Assembly (NCBI RefSeq): GCF_000174435.1
Contig: NZ_ACJN02000003.1
Span: forward strand, 884,263 to 948,262
Length of the DNA stretch: 64,000 nt
From: Desulfonatronospira thiodismutans ASO3-1
Lineage (GTDB): Bacteria > Desulfobacterota > Desulfovibrionia > Desulfovibrionales > Desulfonatronovibrionaceae
Direction: 5' to 3'
A program made the translations under genes and the position numbers. Positions 29,036 through 63,471 of the stretch are shown here, one piece after another. Position 1 is the stretch's first letter, and the number at the start of each line of letters is the position of its first letter. The notes beneath the pieces are model-generated. The model searched no databases. It had not been told where the DNA came from and saw only the letters and a list, made by a program, of their open reading frames with translations.

Positions 29036-29390
29036 GTAACTCTTCAGGGGGGGAGATATGCCAATTTGCCTGTCTGCCAGACGGGTAATGCCTTGCTGGG
29101 GATCTTTTATTCTTCAAAACCGTGTGTGCGGAGCACCAGTGTGAAGCCTGAAGGCTTCCCGTGCCGGAGAAGATTTTTTGGCACGGGCAACTTCGTTGCT
29201 CATCCCAGTGAAACCAGCTACGCTGACCCAGCACTCACTTTTCCATTTGTTTGCTTGTGATGAAACCGAAATTATTAAAGTGAGTGCTGGGTGTTTCACG
29301 GGACAGGCGGGCGGCTCTGCCGCTCACGGCTGGGGAGTACGCCTCAAGTCTATTCCCGGTGGGGATTGCTGGCACCCCCTGAATGGTTAC
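29036..29390 (-). mobile_element. MITE-like element, copy B (inverted relative to copy A)
   Basis: 355 bp, with ends GTAACTCTTCAGGGG and CCCCTGAATGGTTAC. The flanks ATACTGAT (29028-29035) and ATATTGAT (29391-29398) are an 8-bp direct repeat with one transition. The arms match copy A (793-1088) in reverse. It lacks the hairpin that is special to copy A but has its own insertion of about 107 bp holding a perfect 16-bp inverted repeat (29226-29241 and 29277-29292). No ORF. Confidence 0.75.
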
Positions 29391-43399: not shown

Positions 43400-43576
43400 G
43401 TAACCATTCAGGGGGATGCCGGAATCGGCCTGGGGACAGTCCCCGCGACACCTTGCCTTCACAATCGCCAAAATTACAAGCGCAAAATTCCGTGATCCTG
43501 CACAGACCTACACAGCGAGGGACAGTCCCCAGGCCTTGTGCCAGTAATCAACACCGAGGACCCCCTGAATGGTTAC
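43400..43576. mobile_element. MITE-like element, copy C, between ptsH and ptsI
   Basis: The 177-bp element starts GTAACCATTCAGGGGG and ends with its reverse complement. Inner GGGGACAGTCCC modules lie near each end (43432-43444 and about 43518-43530). The outer arms of about 45 bp match the element at 62231-62403, while the middle differs. The flanks (ACGGGCAG, CCGTCCAG) match at only five of eight positions, so a target duplication is not clear. Its right end is 8 bp from the ptsH stop codon. Confidence 0.72.
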
Positions 43577-61360: not shown

Positions 61361-61404
61361 GCCTGGATGCAAACATTTTTTTGCTGCATTCAATAAACAT
61401 ATTA

Positions 61405-62226
61405 ATGACTGAAAAAAGTTGTCATCATCGCCGATACGGAAGTCTTTATACATTATACCTTGATCAGCAGGCAATTGAATTTCTTGATTCCGGGCTGAGT
61501 CCAGAAGAATGGTTCCGTTGCAATATCTGCAATATCAAGTCCGATGAGAAAAAAGAATCCGGCATTGTAAATATTTCCAGCAGCAAAGCAGTCTTTGTTA
61601 AACGATTTTTCATAGACAACGCATGGCAAAAGATACTTTATGCATTGTACAAAGACCAGGCCCTTCAGACTTTCAAGCTCTCTTTGGACATGGCATCTGC
61701 AGGCGTACCCATACCCAGGCCTTTAGCGGTCATAAGGGACCCTGAAAGAAAAAAAAAGTCTGTATACCTCCTTAGTGAAGCACTAAGGCATTACCGGACT
61801 CTAAAAAAAACAATCATAGACCTAAAAGATCCTGCGCAGGTCCAGGATGTTCTGGATTATTTAGCAGTTTTGCTTGCCAAAATGCACAATGCGGGTTTTT
61901 TTCACGGCGATATGAAATGGAAAAATATCATGATTGATGCCCGATCAAAAAATTCGGCTTGCTTCATAGATCTGGATACCGCCGGAAGACTAATTTCCCG
62001 CAGGGACAGGCGCTATGCCAGGGACCTGGCCCGTTTCTGCATTGATATACAGGAAAGCCTGCCCCAGCAAGAACAGGTATGTCGCTTCATAACGGCCTAT
62101 TCGCGTTTTGCGACAAGAACCCCAAAGTCTATCATGGAGCATACCCTCCCCTATCATATGAAAATCGCTGCCAAACACAGGGCAAAGTATGGCATAGAGC
62201 CAACCCCACTAAAACTGGATCCATAA
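61405..62226 (+). CDS. Lipopolysaccharide kinase (InaA/WaaP/KdkA-like)
   Basis: 273 residues from ATG 61405 (MTEKSCHHRRYG). The eukaryotic-kinase-like fold has FFHGDMKWKNIMIDA as the catalytic loop (His-Gly-Asp, Asn) and FIDLDTAGR as the metal motif. WaaP- and KdkA-type enzymes phosphorylate heptose or Kdo of the LPS core. It is the second kinase-fold gene of this locus and only weakly alike to the one at 58483. Confidence 0.85.
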   Translation: MTEKSCHHRRYGSLYTLYLDQQAIEFLDSGLSPEEWFRCNICNIKSDEKKESGIVNISSSKAVFVKRFFIDNAWQKILYALYKDQALQTFKLSLDMASAGVPIPRPLAVIRDPERKKKSVYLLSEALRHYRTLKKTIIDLKDPAQVQDVLDYLAVLLAKMHNAGFFHGDMKWKNIMIDARSKNSACFIDLDTAGRLISRRDRRYARDLARFCIDIQESLPQQEQVCRFITAYSRFATRTPKSIMEHTLPYHMKIAAKHRAKYGIEPTPLKLDP

Positions 62227-62230
62227 ACAT

Positions 62231-62403
62231 GTAACCATTCAGGGGTCTGTTACCGGCCATGGGACAGTCCCAGCGAAACTTTTCCTGCACAATACAAAAA
62301 GTGCAGACGGGAAATTTTATGAAACTGCATAATCATTACTTAGCGGGGACAGTCCCCTGGCCTTGTGCAATTAGTCACCACTGAAGACCCACTGAATGGT
62401 TAC
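62231..62403. mobile_element. MITE-like element, copy D, inserted at a start codon
   Basis: The 173-bp element has ends GTAACCATTCAGGGG and its reverse complement with one mismatch (CCCACTGAATGGTTAC). GGGACAGTCCC modules lie at 62261-62271 and 62345-62357. Flanks ATAAACAT (62223-62230) and ATGAATAT (62404-62411) are an 8-bp direct repeat with two transitions. The right-hand repeat is the start of the glycosyltransferase gene, so the original target was the gene's own ATG. Confidence 0.75.
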
Positions 62404-63471
62404 ATGAATATCCTGTTTGTAAACACTTCAAGAATCTGGGGCGGCAACGAGAAATGGACTCATATGGCCAGCCATGCTCTGGCCAGCCGACACAATGTCC
62501 TTCTGGTTTACCGCTGTCCTTATCTTGGCAGTCGCTTCTCCATAAAAAAAATGAAGCTGCCCTTCATCAACAGAGTTGATCTTTTCACGCTGTATTGTCT
62601 TAAAAAAATAATACAAAGAGAACATATAGACATACTGATATCTACCAACAGAAAGCATTATCTTCTGGGTGTACTGGCCTCTAAAATCACTGGCTGTAGA
62701 CATTTTGTACGTTGCGGAATAGTCTGGAATGTTCCGGATAATATATATAATCGCTTTTTGTTTCGTGAAATCGACGGCATAATAGTAAATGCCCGGGCAA
62801 TACAAGACATGCTCATCAAAAGCGGGGTTGTTCGCAAAGACAAGATTCATGTCGTTTATAATGGACTGGATACTGACATTCTGGATAAATCAAAACTTAA
62901 ATATAAAAGCAGGGATGAATTTGTTATCATATCCAGCGGCGAACTCGTGCCCAGAAAAGGCTATATTTTTTTGCTTCATGCATTTGCGAAATTTCTTAAA
63001 ATGCAGCCAGACTCCAATGTTCAACTTATATTAATAGGCAAGGGAAGGCAGGAACAAGAACTCAAGTCTGTTGCAAAAAAACTTGGCATTGAACAACAGG
63101 TAACATTTGCTGGATTTCTGGACGATCCATACTCTTTGATAATTCAAAGCAATCTTTTTGTTTCAGTGTCACAAAATGAAGGCATCTCAAATGCCTTGCT
63201 GGAAGCTATGTACCTGGGTATTCCTGTTGTCACCACTCCTGCCGGAGGCAGCTTGGAAGTCATCTCACACGGGGAAAACGGTTTTTTGATTAAAAACAGC
63301 AGTGAAAAGTATTTAGCGGACATCTTCAGGCAGGCATACTTGAACAGCAGCTTATTTCAGGATATAGGACGTGCTGGCCAAAGTACAGTTAAAAGTAAAT
63401 TTTCTTTAGCAAGCATGAGTTCTCATTTAGAAAACATATTTAAGTCATATTTAGGCAGAAAAAAAACTTAG
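62404..63471 (+). CDS. GT4-type glycosyltransferase (family 1 / GT-B fold)
   Basis: 355 residues from ATG 62404 (MNILFVNTSRIWGGNEKWTHM). GT-B fold; the C-terminal nucleotide-sugar domain has SSGELVPRKGYIFLLHAFAKF, VTFAGFLDDPY and the EGISNALLEAM E-x7-E motif. It would extend an LPS core or O-antigen from a nucleotide sugar. An in-frame GTG at 62365 would add 13 residues encoded by the adjoining mobile element. It has no ordinary ribosome-binding site because the element replaced its leader. The next gene starts 1 bp after the stop. Confidence 0.88.
   Translation: MNILFVNTSRIWGGNEKWTHMASHALASRHNVLLVYRCPYLGSRFSIKKMKLPFINRVDLFTLYCLKKIIQREHIDILISTNRKHYLLGVLASKITGCRHFVRCGIVWNVPDNIYNRFLFREIDGIIVNARAIQDMLIKSGVVRKDKIHVVYNGLDTDILDKSKLKYKSRDEFVIISSGELVPRKGYIFLLHAFAKFLKMQPDSNVQLILIGKGRQEQELKSVAKKLGIEQQVTFAGFLDDPYSLIIQSNLFVSVSQNEGISNALLEAMYLGIPVVTTPAGGSLEVISHGENGFLIKNSSEKYLADIFRQAYLNSSLFQDIGRAGQSTVKSKFSLASMSSHLENIFKSYLGRKKT

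Follow-up and report, generated by a model that had tools for sequence, protein, structure and literature searches.

Probable insertion of an IS66-like MITE into the stop/start overlap of a lipopolysaccharide kinase-like gene and a glycosyltransferase gene

The locus and its element

A mobile element that lies directly against the first codon of a gene raises the question of how it came to stand there and what its position means for the genes on both sides. In the window, i.e., the whole stretch of 64,000 nucleotides of Desulfonatronospira thiodismutans ASO3-1 DNA that was analyzed, a gene of the Kdo/WaaP-type lipopolysaccharide kinase family (61381-62226; Pfam PF06293, E 3e-14) is followed by an intact gene for a glycosyltransferase of family 4 (GT4, 355 aa; 62404-63471; Pfam PF00534, E 6e-36). 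These genes and all features between them are given on the plus strand. The kinase gene stops with TAA at 62224-62226, the ATG of the GT4 gene is located at 62404-62406 and its ORF ends at 63471. Between both genes lies a non-coding MITE of 173 bp (62231-62403, GTAACCATTCAG...CTGAATGGTTAC), the terminal inverted repeats of which, GTAACCATTCAGGGG on the left (62231-62245) and CCACTGAATGGTTAC on the right (62389-62403), are perfect over 12 bp. It is bordered by a putative 8-bp target-site duplication, with ATAAACAT on the left (62223-62230), holding the upstream stop codon, and ATGAATAT on the right (62404-62411), holding the start codon. A first-pass annotation had placed the element, both duplications, and the gene start at exactly these positions and an in-frame GTG at 62365, all of which were verified on the sequence, and had rightly described the two differences between left and right duplication as transitions. 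Within the MITE two near-invariant GGGACAGTCCC palindromes (62261-62271 and 62345-62357) are, in the family alignment, the best conserved part after the ends.

The family is large. In the genome 40 BLAST-alignable places were detected, plus fragments; the homologous copies retrieved besides the one at the GT4 start number about 39. Terminal inverted repeat ends with at most one mismatch occur 366 times in the genome versus once for a reversed-pattern control, which corresponds to about 180 elements. Exact 8/8 duplications were present at 26 of the 39 measured copies, 7/8 matches at four and 6/8 matches at three, so that a match of at least 6/8 is seen at 33 of the 39; six copies match at 3/8 or less, three of these being clear 7-bp duplications. 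No duplication at all was seen at copies L020, L023 and L030. As is typical of MITEs, the elements are short, non-coding and dispersed in many copies, and carry terminal inverted repeats and a duplication of fixed length (8 bp). Outside this genome, copies occur in three further species of its genus and in one further species of its family. A search of 23 order-level relatives detected no copy, and the search of plasmids gave no match. The literature on IS66-derived MITEs with these ends, or on the genus, yielded nothing about this MITE. At 17 of the 40 copies examined the empty site has a stop-to-stop frame of at least 120 codons, a crude count that takes in the window copy, where the kinase ORF is the frame that spans the site; the family therefore also hits coding sequence.

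Some copies are identical in pairs (L043/L044, L015/L021 and L023/L025) and for others the divergence from the consensus reaches 19%, so the family had more than one period of activity, unless copies were duplicated together with the DNA around them. Copies L009 (G000:C3:456489) and L023 (G000:C2:425887) have the left flank in common and differ in the right one, suggesting that a duplication took place, or that recombination went through the MITE. The window itself holds a further copy of 177 bp at 43400-43576, the flanks of which match at only about 5/8. Two longer elements at 793-1088 (about 296 bp) and 29036-29390 (about 355 bp) are oriented in opposite directions and have internal sequence in common. 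Their ends are mixed, GTAACYMTTCA(A/G)GGG, and their 8-bp duplications, TGCTGACT/TGTTGACT and ATACTGAT/ATATTGAT, match at 7/8, and based on ends and duplications they represent a second family of MITEs, the ends of which are related to those of the first.

The empty site

The left and right duplications of the MITE at the GT4 start match at 6/8. Unrelated 8-mers reach 6/8 or more in 0.94% of between-copy comparisons and in 0.67% of local random ones, and with a chance of less than 1% the 6/8 match is best read as a decayed duplication. The copy differs by 8.7% from the family consensus, and two changes among the 16 positions of both duplicates fit this level; judged from this divergence the insertion is not recent.

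Relatives within the genus and the family have orthologous junctions without the MITE, with a protein identity of only about 50-54%. As ATGAATAT stands at the homologous GT4 start in four relatives (L064, L065, L066 and L067), the right duplication is the ancestral copy, from which the left one has decayed. In L064, L065, L066 and L068 the kinase frame is open for 275-312 codons before a TGA that lies within ATGA(A) and overlaps the GT4 start by 4 nt, and none of these four junctions shows MITE ends. In L051 and L052/L067 a short spacer of about 17 nt takes the place of the overlap. When the flanks of the window element are joined, GGATCC is followed by ATGAATATCC and the upstream frame ends in LKLDP and a TGA overlapping the ATG, so that the 4-nt ATGA overlap of the empty site is found in the joined flanks as well as in four relatives. 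The proposal of the first-pass annotation that the element landed on the start codon is supported by these comparisons, since relatives without the MITE carry ATGAATAT at this place and joining the flanks recreates it. No related strain with the same spacer and without an element end at 62404 was encountered. Among the sequences found, contig L048 alone is from the same species; it carries the same MITE and is 99.9% identical over 2050 bp, with two differences; a same-species allele without the MITE was not found. L048 (PWGJ01000001.1) is filed under a Candidatus Nealsonbacteria MAG, and from its identity to the window it is probably a mis-binned contig of the window's species.

Taken together, the MITE was probably inserted into the 4-nt ATGA overlap of the kinase-like and GT4 genes, with both proteins kept intact. 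In this model a non-autonomous IS66-type MITE would have entered the overlap, and the 8-bp target duplication would have copied stop and start together. The left duplicate would then supply the stop, its TGA having drifted to TAA, and the right duplicate the start; because both codons were copied, neither protein would be changed. The ancestral junction of the species would read GGATCCATGAATAT, and an empty allele with the ATGA target GGATCCATGAATATCC. Alternatively, the left flank ATAAACAT could be native, with a MITE that arrived via recombination or target deletion at a junction that had another spacer before. Two of eight duplication positions differ, copies such as L020, L023 and L030 lack any duplication and one type of relative has a short spacer, all of which would suit a native flank. 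However, a match of at least 6/8 is found in less than 1% of unrelated pairs, most copies of the family have 8-bp duplications, and the ATGA junction that results from the duplication model is exactly the one of four relatives, which makes the native flank very unlikely.

Chance or targeting

Insertion at a start codon might point to target preference. If insertion is uniform and the 4.1 Mb contain about 3,600 genes, a typical number that was assumed, the roughly 180 elements should by chance give about one duplication containing a start, and start-codon targeting was therefore rejected. At 31 element ends an ATG follows within 6 nt, a number that includes the window copy more than once, and only the window copy sits at a clear gene start. 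L131 was considered as a second start-codon hit and dismissed, as it encodes a protein of the FrhB/FdhB type, the true start of which is probably located further downstream. The MITE at the GT4 start probably came to its place by chance and was tolerated since no protein was broken.

Translation start of the glycosyltransferase gene

The N-terminus of the GT4 protein (MNILF.NTS.IWGGNEKW) is conserved in relatives, and in those compared MNILFVNTSRIWGGNEKW is conserved up to residue 1; translation must therefore start at AUG 62404 or upstream of it. The only upstream in-frame ATG, GTG or TTG start is GTG 62365, which with 13 codons inside the MITE (62365-62403) would add the peptide MQLVTTEDPLNGY-M as a possible, weakly supported extension. 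This codon exists in frame, as annotated before, but it would be a weak start, since a well-spaced Shine-Dalgarno is absent and the nearest GGGG is 15 nt away and itself in a stem. AUG 62404 has no useful Shine-Dalgarno either. The earlier view that the gene lost its native ribosome-binding site needs to be modified: a strong site is improbable, because the empty site offers only a GGAT that is weak and too close, and with the ATGA overlap in four relatives the coupling to the kinase gene is the likelier loss. The distance from stop to start (TAA end 62226, ATG from 62404) is now 177 nt. In E. coli and Haloferax reinitiation is nearly abolished at gaps of about 20 nt (PMC10666635), and the ancestral overlap coupling is thus probably lost. 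An unseen signal may drive transcription or translation of the GT4 gene.

The MITE RNA is predicted to fold with -77.8 kcal/mol (z -8.2), with AUG 62404 inside the terminal-repeat stem and paired with the left arm. The predicted probability of the AUG being unpaired is 0.003 with the MITE vs 0.93 at the empty site; directly after insertion it would have been 0.08. With a ribosome footprint reaching 6-18 nt past the upstream stop the probability for the present sequence is predicted to rise to 0.53-0.62. In this fold a change from T to C in the left duplicate replaces a G-U pair over the AUG by G-C. Covariation in the family fold (2 of 43 pairs) is not informative, and transposition alone leads one to expect pairing of the terminal repeats. 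Rfam gave nothing above chance, so that a known structured RNA was rejected, and no promoter-like or terminator-like site above the shuffled expectation was detected in the MITE.

Termination-reinitiation coupling would be lost over the 177-nt gap with no good Shine-Dalgarno. With the AUG paired, translation of GT4 would be reduced, or would depend on the left arm being opened by ribosomes that terminate upstream. We put forward such a translational consequence, with coupling lost and the AUG in a hairpin, tentatively, at somewhat below even chances. Alternatively, the insertion could be neutral for expression. If GTG 62365 were used or ribosomes kept the hairpin open, the output would be unchanged; two assemblies that carry the MITE have an intact ORF that hardly differs between them (the two differences to L048), and the insertion is not recent by its divergence. 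Yet the GTG has no suitably placed Shine-Dalgarno and the predicted stem hides the AUG, and we consider a neutral insertion rather unlikely. The main effect might also be on the mRNA and not on initiation, for which other bacterial MITE RNAs (Correia/NEMIS, ERIC) provide precedent. Here, RNase III might cut the long terminal-repeat stem, or the stem might protect the upstream message, and either would separate the expression of the two genes. The z-score of the fold and this precedent speak for such a main effect on mRNA and the lack of terminator-like or promoter-like sites speaks against it; we regard it as unlikely.

A more far-reaching possibility is that the MITE turned an overlap-coupled pair into a pair coupled via a transposon hairpin that is opened by terminating ribosomes, which we consider quite improbable. 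If true, the change from T to C noted above would be part of it, and a mobile element could rewire the mode of translational coupling with neither protein altered.

Relation to known systems

By its GTAA-type ends and 8-bp duplication the MITE resembles an IS66-derived element. ISDge4 of the ISBst12 group of the IS66 family has the end GTAACTGCTCAGCA and an 8-bp repeat (PMC12898284); the MITE, with GTAACCATTCAGGGG as its end, has GTAAC...TCAG ends and the 8-bp duplication in common with this group, and unlike IS66-family insertion sequences it has no transposase. The genome contains two IS66 transposase families, of which the nine-copy one has ends, GTAAGCGTCCA, that differ from those of the MITE. 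Among the PF03050 loci of this genome and 17 relatives, no autonomous partner with the MITE ends as termini was detected.

An upstream ribosome that opens long-range structure is a known mode of coupling (PMC6728339). The GT4 junction resembles this mode in that the start region lies in a long-range structure which an upstream ribosome would open, and differs in that the predicted structure comes from a mobile element. If the hairpin gates translation, the locus would be a natural test of overlap-based versus structure-based coupling in one gene pair. The locus is also a clean illustration of how an element can land safely on a stop/start overlap thanks to its 8-bp target duplication, with both proteins surviving while their coupling would be broken.

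The window MITE is an ordinary element of a known kind in a neat but chance position. Correia/NEMIS, ERIC and REPIN are likewise short palindromic repeats that lie in transcribed gaps and are able to fold as RNA hairpins. Their sequences are unrelated to the MITE, and in the window the edge of the element coincides with a stop/start overlap.
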